The notes under the pieces were generated by a model that did no database searches, had not been told where the DNA came from, and was given only the letters and a program-made list of their open reading frames with translations. A stretch of 48,352 nucleotides of DNA from an uncultured Eubacteriales bacterium (GTDB lineage: Bacteria; Bacillota; Clostridia; Christensenellales; Aristaeellaceae), in NCBI GenBank assembly GCA_902785105.1, contig CACZXF010000013.1:1-48352 (forward strand). Reading direction: 5' to 3'. The translations under genes were made by a program, and so were the position numbers. Shown in pieces: positions 35,612 through 48,352 of this stretch. The first letter of the stretch is position 1. Each line of letters begins with the position of its first letter.

Positions 35612-36690
35612 TCACATCACCGCCTGGTATTCTTCCAACACCTGATTTGGGGATCGAAGGCCCAGACAGTGCTTTATACTAAACTTCTTCTAAATGTGGA
35701 CAAGCATGCGAGTGTATTTTTCGTCATGGCAAGGCGAAGGCCCACAGGCTTGCTGGCGGCAAGTCAAGGGACTTCAACGCCGCGGCGCTTTTTCTCAATC
35801 TTTGATTGAGAAAAAGCGGTCGGCGAAGCCGACTGAGAATCCCCTCACCTTCTGGCGGAAAAGACGCCGCAGGATTGTCTATATTTAGAGGAAGTTTAGT
35901 ATTATGTAGTCGTTGGATTTCTTCTGGTAGACGGCCAGCTGTTTGCGGCCATCCTCCAGGCTGAACATTCTCAATCGGTTGTAAAAACGCTCCTGATCGA
36001 TGCGGTGTTGACGTTCCACTTTGCCGTTGTGGCGAGGCGTGGCTACCCGGATGCGATGATAGCGTATCCCTTTTTCTTCCAGCTTTAGCTCAAACAGGGT
36101 CTTATCTGTTGGATCATTGTAGATCAATGCCTTGGTAAACTCTGTGCCATTATCCGTTTGAATCTCCTTGATCTGGAAGGGAACATGCCGGATCAGAGCA
36201 GTCAGAAACTGTTCCGAGCTGTAAGTGCTGTGTTCATCGTACATTTCCCGATAGGTCCAGCGCGTACATTCATCTACCGCCGTGTATTGATACTATTTCC
36301 GGCCATCCACCACGCACTCAGAGGGAACAAACTTCACATCCACCTGTACCTTCTGTCCCGGGTAATCTGCCCTTTGATAGGGCTTGTTATGGCGCTTTTT
36401 CCGTCGCTTGTTCTCTTTGCCTTCCCTGAGCTTATGCGCTACTCGCTTAAACCCACCATAGCTGCGCGTATAGCCATATTTTTCCCGCATATCCTGATAG
36501 GCCAGTATCACATCTTTCCAATGATGCTTCTTCATCATCCGTCGGTTCTGCTTGAGCTCGTTTTCTGTATGCGCCCGCGGTGTGTGGTGGGGGCGATGAC
36601 TCCTCTCCATCAGGCTTTCCAAAGTCCCATCATAGCGCTTGACCCACTTGTACAGCGTCTTCCGACTGACCTTGTATCCTGGATGCCTAC
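35612..36690 (-). pseudogene. IS481-like DDE transposase, truncated, with stop codon and an inserted element
   Basis: Remains of an rve/DDE integrase-fold transposase. Catalytic residues are visible: Asp in VQVDVKFVP, Asp in QTDNGTEF, Glu in RHNGKVERQH. The gene is broken three ways. (1) Its 5' end is cut at about 36685 where IS66 sequence begins. (2) An in-frame TAG at 36290-36292 follows VVDGRK, where homologues read on (YQYTAVDECTR continues in the same frame). (3) The foldback element at 35677-35901 is inserted after KKSNDYI; on its other side the frame resumes as KHCLGLRSPNQVLEEYQAVM and ends at a TGA (35612-35614). It is not functional. N-terminal residues upstream of the IS66 join are antisense IS66 sequence. 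Confidence 0.85.
35677..35901. mobile_element. Foldback MITE-like element E1 (225 bp) with TTA/TAA target duplication
   Basis: The ends are imperfect 27-bp inverted repeats beginning TACTAAACTTC (24/27 identical); the two arms stay similar for more than 60 bases. The flanks are TTA (35674-35676) and TTA (35902-35904), a 3-bp duplication (TAA on the other strand). The centre holds TCTCAATCTTTGATTGAGA and GTCGGC-GAA-GCCGAC hairpins. It interrupts the transposase pseudogene, and removing the element with one TAA restores the reading frame. No coding sequence of its own. Confidence 0.85.
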
Positions 36691-37075
36691 TGGGCTTGGT
36701 TGAACACCATTCGCCTGCCTTCCGGTAAGCTGAAGGACGCGGTGACCTATGCGCTGAACCAGAAGGAACACTTATCCACATTTCTGGATCATGGCGAAGT
36801 CGAAATCAGCAACAACCAAGTGGAGAACGCTATCCGCCCCTTCGTCGTGGGCCGCAAGGGTTGGCTGTTCTCTGATATCCTGGGGGGATGAAGAAGCCAG
36901 TGCCGTTATCTACTCCCTCATGGAGACCGCCAAGGCCAACGGCCTGCGGCTGGAGGATTATATCCTTCATCTGCTGTCCATCCTGCCGGAACACTTTGAG
37001 GCCGACCCGAATGCTGATATTGATGATCTCCTCCCGTGGCATAACGGCATAAGAGATAGCTTTGCTACGCTGTGA
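36685..37075 (+). pseudogene. IS66-family transposase (TnpC) C-terminal fragment with frameshift
   Basis: The translation matches the end of IS66 transposases: AYWAWLNTIRLPSG, LNQKEHLSTFLDHGEVEISN, NNQVENAIRPFVVGRKGWLF, then in the next frame EASAVIYSLMETAKANGLRL and PEHFEADPNADIDDLLPWH. The frame changes inside a run of six G at about 36886-36891, so it is frameshifted as well as 5'-truncated. Its left limit abuts the IS481-like remnant. No upstream tnpA or tnpB. After its stop, 37076-37150 shows nothing clear. Confidence 0.85.
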
Positions 37076-37153
37076 ACATGGGCTTATTTAGCGGTCACTT
37101 TGAGACGCTTTTGTAATCCGATGAAGGAGCTGAAATCAGCGAATGATCAGCAA

Positions 37154-37182
37154 TTGAATTTTCAGTTTTTTTATGATACAAT
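37154..37182 (+). promoter_or_regulatory. Extended -10 promoter of lacI-type gene 1
   Basis: TTGAAT (37154-37159), 17-base spacer, TACAAT (37177-37182) preceded by TGA (extended -10). Confidence 0.7.
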
Positions 37183-37209
37183 ATATACAGAATAATAAAG
37201 GAGCATCCA

Positions 37210-38238
37210 ATGAAAAAAGTAACGATACAGGACATTGCGGACGAGTTGGGTATTTCACGCAACACCGTATCCAAGGCCATCAACAATGCGGATGGTCTGG
37301 CGGAAGCGACGCGCGAAAAAATACTGCAAAAGGCAGCGGAGATGGGCTATAAACAGTTTTCATATATCAAGGCACAGGTTGTCAATACCGTTGAAAAGGA
37401 AACGCCGCACAGGGGCGAGATCGCATTGCTTTGCGGGAACATCCTCGCGCCTGCCCATTTTGCTTCATTGATGTTGGATAAACTGAAGACAGAATTATCC
37501 CAAATGGGATACAGTTTGAGTACTCATCGCGTTGAACGGGGTGACTTTGAAAGCATGTCGCTGCCGGTCACTTTTGTCCCCGAACAGGCTACCGCCATCC
37601 TCTGCATCGAGATGTTCGATCGGGCTTACGACGAAATGATCTGCGCTCTCGGCCTGCCGGTGCTCTTCGTAGACGGCCCAAACAAGAGAAATGGTGCTGA
37701 CCTGCCTGCCGACCAGCTTTACATGGACAACACTACCGCCATCACCCGGTTCGTCAACGACATGCTCTTACTGGGCAAGCACCGCATTGGCTTTATCGGA
37801 GATTATGAGCATTGCCAGTCCTTTTTTGAACGCTATGCCGCCTTTCGCTGCGCCATGCTCATGGCAGGCGTCCCCGTGGATGAGCGGTTCTGCATCAAGG
37901 CGTTGGAATCAGCGCAGGTCACAGAAGCCCTGACCGCGCTTCCGGAAATGCCGGAGGTGTTCATCTGTGCCAATGATTTTATCGCGGATGACGCCATTTA
38001 CGCCCTGCGAAAGCTGGGCAAATCCGTGCCGGGCGACGTGCTGTTCTGCGGCTTTGACGACGCTCCAAACTCCCGCATCATGACGCCCGCCCTGACCACC
38101 GTACACATCCATACCCAGATCATGGCGCTCACCGCAATGAACCTGTTGATTTCCCGCATCGAACAGCCCAATATGAATTATCGCATCGTCCATACCGAGA
38201 CGGAATTGATCTACCGGGATTCCACCCGAATGGATTAA
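37210..38238 (+). CDS. LacI family transcriptional regulator 1
   Basis: A 342-residue regulator. Residues 1-48 are a LacI helix-turn-helix (VTIQDIADELGISRNTVSKA) with the hinge region after it, and the rest is a periplasmic-binding-protein-like sugar sensor (VLFVDGPNKR, RIGFIGDYEHCQSF, VFICANDFIADDAIYAL). AAAGGAG lies 6 bases before the ATG. It is closely related along its whole length to the second regulator at 42441 (same N-terminus, same DGPNKR and ANDF blocks), so the two arose by duplication. It faces the GH32 gene and probably controls the sugar locus. Its TAA stop codon is also the left target-site copy of the element that follows directly. Confidence 0.92.
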   Translation: MKKVTIQDIADELGISRNTVSKAINNADGLAEATREKILQKAAEMGYKQFSYIKAQVVNTVEKETPHRGEIALLCGNILAPAHFASLMLDKLKTELSQMGYSLSTHRVERGDFESMSLPVTFVPEQATAILCIEMFDRAYDEMICALGLPVLFVDGPNKRNGADLPADQLYMDNTTAITRFVNDMLLLGKHRIGFIGDYEHCQSFFERYAAFRCAMLMAGVPVDERFCIKALESAQVTEALTALPEMPEVFICANDFIADDAIYALRKLGKSVPGDVLFCGFDDAPNSRIMTPALTTVHIHTQIMALTAMNLLISRIEQPNMNYRIVHTETELIYRDSTRMD

Positions 38239-38420
38239 TACTATTCTCAACCTAAAATCTATACATCTGGCTGGAAACTTCGTTGCAGTTCCGTGCATCT
38301 TTTTCGCCCTGTCGTTGCTTCACTCCGGTCAACGTAGCACTGCTGCGCCTCCCTACGTTTAGCTTAGACAGGACGAAAAATCCACTCCGAATCTGTATAT
38401 GTTTTAGATTGAGAATAGTA
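38239..38420. mobile_element. Foldback MITE-like element E2 (182 bp) inserted at a stop codon
   Basis: Inverted ends of 27 bp beginning TACTATTCTCAA (24/27 identical) and flanked by TAA on both sides: 38236-38238, which is the stop codon of the lacI-type gene, and 38421-38423. Inner arms TTTTTCGCCCTGTC and GACAGGACGAAAAA form a second stem. The block GTCAACGT ... GCGCCTCCCT is shared with element E3, and the block AGTGGATTTTTCGTC (reverse strand) with element E1. No coding sequence. Confidence 0.82.
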
Positions 38421-38441
38421 TAAGCGCGACAGAATGAAAGC

Positions 38442-38468
38442 ATTCCCCGGAATCTGATTCCGGGGAAT
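38442..38468. terminator. Bidirectional terminator between lacI-type gene 1 and GH32
   Basis: ATTCCCCGGAAT (38442-38453) pairs perfectly with ATTCCGGGGAAT (38457-38468) around a 3-base loop, followed by TTTTCATG on the plus strand and GCTTTCATTC on the minus strand. Confidence 0.85.
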
Positions 38469-38485
38469 TTTCATGTCATGAAACC

Positions 38486-40297
38486 TCATTCCGGTATCCT
38501 TATCGTGATATTGTCGAATGAAGCGCCGCAGCCCTCAGCAAACACGCCAATGTGCGCGCCGCCTGTGGAGTGGCCGACGCTGGAGCTGAGCGCCTTTTCG
38601 TCGTCGATGTACAGGACGACGATCTCGTTTTCACATACCAGCGTCACGCGATGGATCGGTTTTTTGGAGAAGTCGAACCGGGTGACCGCCATCGGGGGAT
38701 AGTCGTCAAGCTCCGTCAGCTCATAGCCCTCATAGTGCAGCAGGTTCCTTCCGGCATCCAGGCACATCGCGGTCCAGGACTCATCCGTCGCGCTGCCGCC
38801 GAAGGCAAAACCGGCGCAGCCTTCCGCGTCCAGCGCCACGTCGCACTCCAGCATCATCGTCGGCGCGCGCACGCCCATGTCCGCCAGCGCGGTCTCATCG
38901 TCCATTGCCCGGAGCGCAACGTTGCTCCCGTTGATTTCTGCCACTCCTTCGATGTTTTTCGCCTGAAAGGGCTGCGCCTTTGTGAAGTAATCCTCAAAGG
39001 CGTCCGGCGCCTTCACGCCCAGCGAGCTGTCCACGTGCTGAACCTGCTGATGGTTGAGCACATTGCCCGCCCATTGGTAGATGCCGGAATCCGCAGACAG
39101 CCCCGACCGGCCCAGCCAGCCGCAGAGGCAGGTGTTTTCGTTCCACTGAGCGGTCTTTGCCGCATAGAAGACAAAGCCGTTCCCCTCCATCAGGCCCTGG
39201 TCATCCATAATGTTATCCTCCGGCGCGGCAAAAGGACCGTTCATGGATTCGCCGATGGCGTAATAGGTGACGCAATCCCAACTGTAGGTCAGATACCAGG
39301 TATCCCCCATGCAAAACAGATCCGGGCACTCCAGCATGTACTGCGCCTGAGGCGCGTAGATGGGACCTTCAAAGGTCCAGTCCTTCAGATCGGGGGAGGT
39401 GTATTTCACCACCACGCCGCCAAGCTGATCTTCCCGCGCCGCGACGAGCATCCAGTAGCACCCGTCCGACTCCATCCAGAACACCTCCGGGTCGCGGAAG
39501 TCGTCCCTGGAGTAGCCGTCCGGGCTGAAAAAGGTATCCTCCGGGTGCTTCTTCCAGTTTACACGGTCCGCGCTGGTGGCGTGCATCACGCATTCCCTGC
39601 CCATGCCGCCGTTGCCGGTATCGTTGTGGCCGGTGTAGAAGAGATGGTAAAGCCCTTCATTGTCCCGCATGACGGAGCCGGTGCCCAGCACCGGGTCGGG
39701 GTCGGACATCAGGCCATGTTCCAAAACCATACCGTCGGCCGGGCGGTTGCCCACCACGGCATAGTAGCTGCCGCCCTCCTTCCACATCTTGGGGTCGCGG
39801 AAGTCCTCCGTGCTGCCGCCCCTGGGCAGGTCCTTCGCGGTGAGCACGGGGTTGGCATCGAGCTTTTCATAATCCACCCCGTCGCCCACGGCCAGGCACT
39901 GGGTCTGGAAGGGCTTCATCGAGCCATCCGCCTGCCGCTCCTCGCGCACACCGGTGTACATCAGCAGTTGCCTGCCGTCGGGCAGCTCGATGGCGCTGCC
40001 GGAAAAGACGCCGTCCTTGTCGTAGGGCATGTCGGGAGCCAGCGCCACAGGCAGCCGCTCCCAGCGGATAAAGTCCCGGGTCTTGAGATGGCCCCAGTGC
40101 ATCGGTCCCCAGACGGCCTTGTAGGGATAGTATTGGTGGAACAGGTGGTATTCGCCCTTGTAGACGGAGAAACCGTTGGGATCGTTGATCCAGCCGATGC
40201 CGCCGGTGACGTGAAACATCGGGCGTTCCTCATCGGGTACATAGGAGCTGTACTGCGCCTCAAACTCACGCGCCTTTTGCAACGTTTCGCTGATCAT
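38486..40297 (-). CDS. Glycoside hydrolase family 32 protein, apparently chimeric
   Basis: A 603-residue fructan/sucrose hydrolase-type protein. WINDPNG (about 36-42) holds the catalytic nucleophile Asp and LECPDLF the acid/base Glu (E about 327). The RDP motif appears twice: STEDFRDPKMWKEGGSYY (about 166) and SRDDFRDPEVFWMESDGCYW (about 268). The first about 190 residues look like sucrose-6-phosphate hydrolase; from about SDPDPVLGTGSVMRDNEGLY on it looks like another GH32 subtype that starts its own propeller there. The length exceeds either type (about 490-500). I infer a fusion of two GH32 genes at about 39720-39745 by deletion, in frame. Function may be lost. AAGGAAAGG precedes the ATG. 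It was probably the last gene of the transporter operon upstream. Confidence 0.8.
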   Translation of the reverse strand: MISETLQKAREFEAQYSSYVPDEERPMFHVTGGIGWINDPNGFSVYKGEYHLFHQYYPYKAVWGPMHWGHLKTRDFIRWERLPVALAPDMPYDKDGVFSGSAIELPDGRQLLMYTGVREERQADGSMKPFQTQCLAVGDGVDYEKLDANPVLTAKDLPRGGSTEDFRDPKMWKEGGSYYAVVGNRPADGMVLEHGLMSDPDPVLGTGSVMRDNEGLYHLFYTGHNDTGNGGMGRECVMHATSADRVNWKKHPEDTFFSPDGYSRDDFRDPEVFWMESDGCYWMLVAAREDQLGGVVVKYTSPDLKDWTFEGPIYAPQAQYMLECPDLFCMGDTWYLTYSWDCVTYYAIGESMNGPFAAPEDNIMDDQGLMEGNGFVFYAAKTAQWNENTCLCGWLGRSGLSADSGIYQWAGNVLNHQQVQHVDSSLGVKAPDAFEDYFTKAQPFQAKNIEGVAEINGSNVALRAMDDETALADMGVRAPTMMLECDVALDAEGCAGFAFGGSATDESWTAMCLDAGRNLLHYEGYELTELDDYPPMAVTRFDFSKKPIHRVTLVCENEIVVLYIDDEKALSSSVGHSTGGAHIGVFAEGCGASFDNITIRIPE

Positions 40298-40336
40298 ATG
40301 CCTTTCCTTCCTGTTGCGGTTTCAGTGGAGCGGGGA

Positions 40337-40374
40337 GCTTTCCTCCCCCAGAGAGGGGAGAGGGGGAGGAAAGC
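40337..40374 (-). terminator. Long GC-rich hairpin upstream of GH32
   Basis: GCTTTCCTCCCCC (40337-40349) pairs with GGGGGAGGAAAGC (40362-40374), a perfect 13-bp stem with a 12-base loop. It lies between the binding-protein remnant and GH32. No T tract follows on the minus strand, so a processing or stability role is possible. Confidence 0.55.
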
Positions 40375-40378
40375 GTAA

Positions 40379-40614
40379 GGAACTGTGCATAAATTATTCA
40401 TACATTCTGCTTGTCTGAATCCGCCATCGCTGCGTTGGCGGTGGCTTGCCTGAATCTTTGATTCAGCCAAGCCAGTCTGGCGTAAAGCGCCAGACCGCGA
40501 AACCTCTGGTTTCGCGCCTTCGTCGGTCAACGTGCCCCGGCACGCCTCCCTCCTCCGCCTTGCGCTGGCGAATTCATCCTGCGCATTCTGTACGAAATAT
40601 TTATGCACATGTCC
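40379..40614. mobile_element. Foldback MITE-like element E3 (236 bp) with TAA target duplication
   Basis: Ends: GGAACTGTGCATAAATTATT on the left, and on the reverse strand at the right GGACATGTGCATAAATATTT, with 21 of 26 positions matching; arm similarity continues through TGAATCCGCCA. TAA flanks are at 40376-40378 and 40615-40617. The inside is a row of hairpins: CTGAATCTTTGATTCAG, GTCTGGCG-TAAAG-CGCCAGAC, GCGAAACC-TCT-GGTTTCGC, GTGCC-CC-GGCAC. The left end matches 18 of 20 bases of the insertion sequence end at 48247. It occupies most of the 330-base gap between the binding-protein remnant and GH32. Confidence 0.82.
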
Positions 40615-40628
40615 TAAAGTAAACTGGA

Positions 40629-48026: not shown

Positions 48027-48246
48027 ATGAAGTATAATGTCGAAAAGAACACCGAGGTGATCGGTGTGATGCGGGAGTATTTCAGCAAAATAGAAGACAC
48101 AAGGCAACAGGCTCAAGTAAGACATGAGCTATATGAGATTATTGCAATGACAATAGCGGCAGTAATCGGCAACAGTGATGGATGGGATGAGATCGAGGAT
48201 TTCTGCATCAGAAAAGAAGAGTGGCTGCGGGAGCATATGGGGCTAA
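48027..48246 (+). pseudogene. ISAs1-family transposase, N-terminal fragment
   Basis: About 73 residues matching the start of ISAs1-type transposases (the DDE_Tnp_1-associated domain): FSKIEDTRQQAQVRHELYEI, IAMTIAAVIGNSDGWDEIED and FCIRKEEWLREHMGL. Family proteins continue for about 370 residues. Here the reading stops right after MGLR because another insertion sequence begins at 48247, downstream of a TAA (48244-48246). The rest may lie beyond the window. Confidence 0.8.
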
Positions 48247-48352
48247 GGAGCTATGCATAAATTATTAAGTCGTTTTAGGTAAGATGGTGTAGTTCCAATT
48301 AGGATGGAAATTATCACCAACAATGTTCACAGAGGCCAGTTCATCGTCAGAG
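48247..48352 (-). mobile_element. End of an ISAzo13-like insertion sequence, running off the window
   Basis: The element begins GGAGCTATGCATAAATTATT right after TAA and agrees at 18 of 20 positions with the left end of the foldback element at 40379. On the minus strand, a transposase C-terminus ends at a TAA (48265-48267) only 18 bases inside the boundary (see the separate coding entry). Confidence 0.7.
48265..48352 (-). CDS. ISAzo13-like transposase, C-terminal end (partial)
   Basis: Twenty-eight visible residues, reading SDDELASVNIVGD then NFHPNWNYTILPKTT and stop. The HP/GxWNYTI-type ending is characteristic of DDE transposases of the ISAzo13 family as I know it. The gene continues beyond the right edge. 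Only the tail is seen, so the family call needs the full protein. Confidence 0.6.
   Translation of the reverse strand, partial: SDDELASVNIVGDNFHPNWNYTILPKTT

Follow-up and report, generated by a model that had tools for sequence, protein, structure and literature searches.

Three foldback elements in an Aristaeellaceae contig as probable miniature transposons of two transposase families

Three short foldback elements, here called E1, E2 and E3, lie within 5 kb of one another on a 48,352-nucleotide contig (CACZXF010000013.1, assembly GCA_902785105.1) from an uncultured Eubacteriales bacterium of the Aristaeellaceae. The whole contig, referred to below as the window, is contig C13 of a genome (G000) of 3.44 Mb in 131 contigs whose assembly is 92% complete. 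We conclude that the three elements are very probably non-autonomous transposons, or miniature inverted-repeat transposable elements (MITEs), of two transposase families, IS630 for E1 and E2 and ISAzo13 for E3, and that they would move by the mechanism set out in the Discussion. They are MITEs of a known general kind; what is unusual is the rule governing their target site and a core that occurs across two transposase families.

Results

The sequence bears out all three predicted elements. E1 (225 bp, 35677..35901) has the terminal inverted repeat (TIR) TACTAAACTTCnTCTAAAT, encloses a multi-hairpin block and is flanked by TTA at 35674..35676 and at 35902-35904. E2 (182 bp, 38239..38420; TIR TACTATTCTCAAnCTAAAA) is flanked by TAA at 38236..38238 and 38421-38423, and E3 (236 bp including an insert described below, 40379..40614; TIR GGAnnTGTGCATAAAT) by TAA at 40376..40378 and 40615-40617. 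No strand is assigned to the elements or to the duplications flanking E1 and E3. Counted by eye, the TIRs match at 24 of 27 positions in E1, 24 of 27 in E2 and 21 of 26 in E3, the same values as predicted. An Rfam scan of the window at gathering thresholds returned no match.

Each element is a repeat, and the further genomic copies that the original prediction proposed to look for are present. Used as queries against their own genome, E1 returned 17 matching pieces at 7 places on 7 contigs, E2 15 pieces and E3 32. The TIR pattern of E1 and E2 matched 34 times, against 7 for its reversed control, and that of E3 27 times, against none. Because copies occur across the genome and the TIR pattern matches exceed their reversed controls, the repeat status of E1, E2 and E3 is not due to chance. 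The elements are thus short, bounded by TIRs, present in several copies and devoid of a transposase of their own, as MITEs are, and lengths of 109-319 bp leave no room for one. A search of plasmids with E3 gave no match.

For the IS630-type elements, that is the E1/E2 kind, 64 TIR pairs were collected, 16 from the own genome and 20 and 28 from two others of the genus, G024 and G010. Partial copies of the own genome that lack two clean ends, such as those on C19, C5, C29, C39 and C116, stand outside the 16; the other 48 pairs came from 60 regions of G010 and G024, and 6 of the remaining 12 regions stop at a contig end. In G010 (for example C12, C22, C25, C44, C61 and C62), G024 (C48) and G189 (C3 and C12), contigs break off within the repeat, at a distance of about 70-140 bases from the end of a MITE. 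Short-read assembly seems to break in these repeats, so that copy numbers are undercounted.

The ends of E1 and E2 recur on larger elements that carry a transposase. With at most one mismatch, their end pattern is present in 29 of the 308 genomes of the family, its reversed control matching twice across all 308, and it gives 85 end matches in G010 and 57 in G024. In G009 a pair of such ends 1.1 kb apart encloses an IS630-family transposase in two overlapping frames, one of which matches NF033545 at 139 bits and DDE_3 at 82 bits. Searching with this piece found relatives in 12 of the 28 genomes of the genus. Among the 18 matches, five elements have both ends readable and the rest have one end or none, and four of these five combine TACTA-type ends with matching TNA flanks (G009, 1109 bp, TCA; G006, 1117 bp, TGA; G013, 1109 bp, TGA; G023, 959 bp, TCA). 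Against IS630 ends lying at TNA, the two ends of E1 match at 21/27 and 21/27 positions and those of E2 at 20/27 and 23/27, where the shuffled controls, 15 for one end of E1 and 15 for one end of E2, reached at most 19/27; this comparison covers the 27-bp ends, and the partner elements reside in other species. A search of PDB sequences with the IS630 piece gave no match. Judged by their ends, E1 and E2 are MITEs with IS630-family termini, TNA followed by TACTA.

The original prediction named TAA as the target-site duplication (TSD) of all three elements. This held for the E3 kind, in which each of the 12 two-ended copies, 11 of them own and 1 from G025, is bounded left and right by TAA or TTA. 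For the E1/E2 kind the 3-bp duplication stands, but the restriction to TAA does not, and the site has to be loosened to TNA. One scan found matching TSDs in 28 of 31 IS630-type pairs; in the larger, overlapping set of 64 two-ended copies, 56 have matching 3-bp flanks and every one of these is TNA (21 TAA, 19 TTA, 11 TCA and 5 TGA, hence 16 that are TCA or TGA).

Empty sites, also anticipated by the original prediction, were found. The site of a TGA-flanked copy on C18 of G024 is uninterrupted in a repeat of G010, which aligns without gaps at 96% over 76 bp and has a single TGA, and where one IS630-type MITE holds a nested E3-type copy, another MITE copy (L027) shows the site empty, with a single TAA. 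When the joined flanks of the 56 IS630-type sites were compared with the collected loci, one clean empty site (L297) and one looser one (L281) emerged, the other junction-spanning matches being self matches, gapped or too loose; the ISAzo13 type gave one empty site. Since TSD counts and empty sites agree, it is TNA that is duplicated, and the tip TA is part of the element.

The available text of two papers describes the IS630 family with a TA duplication (PMC2170065, PMC10045372), a feature found neither in the E1/E2-type MITEs (TNA in 56/56 pairs with a matching TSD) nor in their IS630 relatives (TNA in 4/5). As a control we took six named IS630 relatives on plasmids, drawn from 779 matching plasmid records and not at random, with TSDs and register read by eye. 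Five have matching flanks, TTA, TCA, TCA, TAA and TTA; the one exception of the six, an Acidithiobacillus caldus element, has TA flanks. The five (L486, L487, L488, L489 and L490) come from Caballeronia, Deinococcus, Azospirillum (ISAli2), Sinorhizobium and Paraburkholderia. ISAli2 is counted among them on a weak TIR match (16/24), and the three plasmid elements with a tip TA, which come without empty sites, fit a TA reading too. TNA duplication seems not to be special to these Clostridia, and the TA feature described for the family looks too narrow. Literature searches for IS630 with a TNA or 3-bp duplication, ISfinder lying outside their scope, returned none described as such in the title or the start of the abstract.

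The ends of E3 lead to a different family. Four contig ends of the own genome bear GGAGCTGTGCATAAAT or GGAGCTATGCATAAAT after TAA or TTA, and one of them is the right edge of the window, where the end of an ISAzo13-family element with TIR GGAGCTATGCATAAAT occupies 48247..48352 on the minus strand and runs off the contig. An element of this kind is the likely mobiliser of E3. The profile match comes not from the window piece but from a near-identical copy on C109 (TIR GGAGCTGTGCATAAAT), which encodes the last 32 residues of a transposase of the ISAzo13 family (PF07592, 28.4 bits against a cut-off of 26.9); in the own assembly the element is represented by end pieces only, its middle being absent. 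The two ends of E3 match the element end at 48247 at 17/19 and 14/19 bases. PF07592 was found in 16 of the 308 genomes of the family, 15 of them above the cut-off. Nine ISAzo13 loci were examined for ends and four were readable (G017, G303, G073 and G283); TAA or TTA flanks the elements of G017 (read by eye), G303 and G073 at either end. By its ends, TAA followed by GGAnnTGTGCATAAAT, E3 is classed as an ISAzo13-type MITE.

A 3-bp duplication of TWA or TNA is the hallmark of the PIF/Harbinger-Tourist and IS5 (IS1031) groups. That our elements belong there is barely conceivable: their TNA and TAA duplications would suit such a membership, but the transposases that accompany such ends belong to IS630 or ISAzo13, a comparison made with no genome-wide search for IS5 profiles.

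The three elements also have internal sequence in common, largely as predicted. The block GAGTGnATTTTTCGTC joins E1 and E2 at 15 of 16 bases, above all 40 base shuffles (maximum 13). E1 and E3 do contain the block GCAAGGCGnAGG, but their best 16-base block is instead CTnAATCTTTGATTnA, with 14/16 matching, a value reached by 1 of 40 shuffles. E2 and E3 have in common the pair GGGAGGCG..CGTTGACC, which with 8 to 14 bases between its parts occurs exactly 26 times in the own genome and never in the control; an ungapped 16-base test of the two elements, unable to show a gapped pair, gave a best block of 12/16 that 29 of 40 shuffles equalled.

This pair, with the stem between its parts, forms a core hairpin, located at 38327..38353 in E2 and at 40525..40550 in E3, on the minus strand in both. 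By comparison of coordinates, all 26 matches fall inside MITE copies, split evenly at 13 per kind; a few of these copies are one-ended. Four other genomes were searched for the pattern, which was found 27 times in G024, 26 times in G025, 9 times in G189 and once in G073. Across 14 distinct versions the inner stem varies while pairing is kept: 96% of cells are paired against 87% in shuffles, 9 cells are changed on both sides against 4.1, and the covariation score lies above all 500 shuffles. In this alignment the two E3-type rows are misaligned, and the outer arms are fixed because the search pattern demands them. Read as RNA, the outer arms would pair through two G-C, two G-U, one C-G and one G-C, flanking a tandem G-A mismatch. 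We infer that the core most likely serves as a structure that helps the element persist.

Such common sequence raises the question of whether a single transposase, tolerant of different ends, moves all three elements, as the original prediction implied in calling them different members of one MITE superfamily. In its favour are the 3-bp T-N-A duplication seen with all three and the GGGAGGCG..CGTTGACC core common to E2 and E3. We nevertheless regard this as highly improbable, since the ends of E1 and E2 match those of IS630-family elements and the ends of E3 those of ISAzo13-family elements, and the transposase profiles differ. The target sites point the same way: the 12 two-ended E3-type copies have TAA or TTA only, and 13 own copies (a diverged copy on C3 left out) show no orientation preference, with 7 TAA and 6 TTA, unlike the oriented IS630-type kind described next. 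The predicted general class thus stands, namely small foldback transposons that make 3-bp duplications, occur in several copies and have empty sites, but the single superfamily is not supported.

E2 starts directly after a stop codon: its left duplication (38236..38238, plus strand) is the TAA that ends a LacI-type regulator gene (37210..38238, plus strand). Gene calls in the tests below come from a home-made, retrained gene finder and no curated annotation. A first test placed 19 of 52 intergenic copies with TSDs exactly on a called gene's stop codon, where 8.7 +/- 2.5 were expected if every TNA in the same intergenic gap were equally likely; of the 64 pairs it left out 8 whose flanks do not match as a TSD and 4 that were called as lying in genes. 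The tests of orientation and the weighted tests used copies with a TSD and the core on one strand only (49, of which 48 lie outside genes by an overlap rule that differs slightly). On the CCTCCC strand the TSD reads TRA in 40 of the 49 (binomial 5e-6): 22/31 at intergenic non-stop sites, 1/1 in a gene and 17/17 at stop codons. The bias is thus also present away from stops (23/32, binomial 0.010), and at a TRA rate of 0.71 the chance of 17/17 is 0.003.

Exactly on a stop codon lie 17 of the 48 intergenic oriented copies, all 17 in the same orientation. Over all 48 sites the expectation is 8.5 unweighted (P=0.0011), 9.3 with a middle-base weight (P=0.0026) and 8.6 with a full weight learnt from non-stop sites (P=0.00044). 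When sites are restricted to those no more than 50 bp downstream of a stop (33 sites, the same 17 at stops), it is 10.6 (P=0.013), 12.1 (P=0.043) and 11.1 (P=0.0056), respectively, so that the excess is 1.4- to 2-fold depending on the null. Divided by genome under the two weighted nulls with no zone, the counts are 4/11 in the own genome (P=0.09, 0.15), 4/16 in G024 (P=0.36, 0.44) and 9/21 in G010 (P=0.0006, 0.004), the last weakening to P=0.04 and 0.19 when only sites within 50 bp of a stop are counted. The excess is modest and comes mainly from one genome, G010; weighed against these several nulls, stop-codon targeting as a simple rule was set aside.

In our reading, the bias reflects a target preference that is asymmetric and turns stop codons into favourable sites where insertion does no harm; a further preference of IS630-type MITEs for true gene ends is possible. 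A stronger version is doubtful, if worth entertaining: the IS630-type transposition complex would select stop codons in an oriented way, by combining an asymmetric reading of TRA with a preference for genuine gene ends (perhaps via transcription or translation termination), and insertion would seamlessly recreate the stop and fix a structured module after the gene, the same module being carried by the unrelated ISAzo13 family. Literature searches on IS630 MITEs or insertion sequences at stop codons brought up no such case in the excerpts returned, and a MITE review (PMC10969869) mentions neither 'stop codon' nor IS630 nor ISAzo13.

The same orientation could instead reflect selection for a useful 3' hairpin, were the elements host-maintained RNA structures or terminators that merely seem mobile. 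E2 folds strongly (z of -9.4 and -7.2 for its two strands), in 55 of 56 copies the GGGAGG strand is the one of the two that folds better (mean 19 kcal/mol), the 17 stop-codon copies all face one way, and non-stop copies no more than 100 bp from an incoming gene lie in that orientation 16 times against 7. We consider this explanation improbable, because TSDs, empty sites and nested copies demonstrate insertion and the strand transcribed after stop codons is the weaker-folding one, contrary to selection for a strong mRNA hairpin; moreover, the 56 copies are related and hence not independent.

Although E3 spans the predicted 236 bp, it is not unitary, being 82 bp longer than its 154-bp sister on C64: it consists of a 154-bp element and a nested 82-bp palindromic insert at 40438..40519 (no strand assigned; ends uncertain by a few bases), which folds into three adjacent hairpins. 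Other E3 copies lack the insert and so represent its empty site, and no target duplication is evident for it. Insert-like pieces with varying loops stand alone elsewhere in G000 (C2:58462-58542, C2:53055-53147, C2:51525-51605, C79:1552-1631 and C35:22389-22451), and the middle of E1 has, by eye, a similar multi-hairpin build. The insert is perhaps REP-like. REP/RAYT elements make no target duplication, and E1, E2 and E3 have clear TSDs.

Other small repeats were seen around MITE sites. Repeats of the form CCTCATCCG..CACCTTCCCCTCAAGGGGAAGGC surround one at about 7250-7560 of C46 in G000 (L021, L128), recur at other loci and constitute another REP-like family, and a repeat starting AAGGGRCTGTCTCAAAACGCC recurs near MITE sites of G010 (L313, L316, L325, L308 and L309) and may be another small mobile repeat. 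In the window itself, remnants of IS481-type (LZ_Tnp_IS481, rve_3) and IS66-type (DDE_Tnp_IS66_C) transposase genes adjoin E1 at 35885-37075. At 48027-48352 a gene start matching DDE_Tnp_1_assoc (PF13808), which we take to be ISAs1-like, is broken after GGGCTAA by the ISAzo13-family element end.

Discussion

Starting from the copies, ends, TSDs, empty sites, transposases with the same ends and orientation bias reported above, we propose that two transposase families move these MITEs in trans. An IS630-type transposase would cut E1 and E2 at their TACTA ends and join them to a TNA site with a 3-bp stagger, and TNA would therefore be duplicated. The two ends of a MITE being slightly unlike each other, entry into a TRA site would occur mainly one way round, so that at a TRA serving as stop codon (TAA or TGA) the gene upstream would retain its stop and the MITE would follow in a fixed orientation. 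E3 would use ISAzo13-family ends and duplicate TAA. The small core hairpin present in both kinds may have been gained by exchange, or kept as helpful to the element or sparing to the host.

Several observations count against this proposal. The window's own genome, at 92% completeness of its assembly, yielded no IS630 relative, which leaves E1 and E2 without a resident mobiliser there. The left end of E2 (20/27) barely exceeds the shuffles. Of the IS630-type pairs, 8 of 64 have no matching TSD; the fifth two-ended IS630 element, in G020, has the unlike flanks TTA and TAA; and one of the four readable ISAzo13 elements, that of G283, has no target duplication. The end scan of ISAzo13 loci also missed the ends of G017. 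Finally, covariation in the core is mixed, since the number of pairs with a double change was equalled by 441 of 500 shuffles and that of pair types by 242 of 500.

Our results suggest that the TA rule for IS630 elements fails for a wide branch that duplicates TNA; were such elements annotated by the TA rule, their ends would be drawn 2 bp too short on each side. The elements also offer a natural case in which MITEs belonging to two transposase families carry one small hairpin module, and a transposon able to land on stop codons without harm to the gene, which can be put to the test.

Among the closest known systems, compared here through the available portions of the cited papers, is RUP, the repeat unit of pneumococcus, for which IS630-Spn1 is the proposed mover (PMC2229807, PMC3049150). 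Like the E1/E2 kind it is a short, non-autonomous intergenic repeat with IS630-family-like ends; RUP is described with TA sites, however, whereas the E1/E2 kind duplicates TNA, has a hairpin core and is oriented on stop codons. ISY100 and IS630 belong to the same transposase family as the E1/E2 partners (PMC2170065), but ISY100 duplicates TA, normally so in 34 of the 39 products that one assay yielded (PMC2170065), where the E1/E2 kind duplicates TNA. Another IS630-Tc1-mariner branch with a 3-bp duplication is that of the Fot elements of the pogo group, most of which duplicate TAA; these differ in being eukaryotic and in having TAA or TA only (PMC7386202). Sailor duplicates TATA (PMC8533490). 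Correia/NEMIS, BOX and similar bacterial MITEs are likewise short intergenic repeats, some with RNA-level effects, but by their description they are set apart by other ends and other hosts (PMC2229807, PMC3049150). For ISAzo13-derived MITEs, a literature search for ISAzo13 with MITE yielded no description in the excerpts it returned. The ISAzo13 family and the eukaryotic Zator elements both make 3-bp TSDs (PMC10045372), and E3 resembles them in that its partner matches PF07592 and its kind has a 3-bp TSD, TAA.

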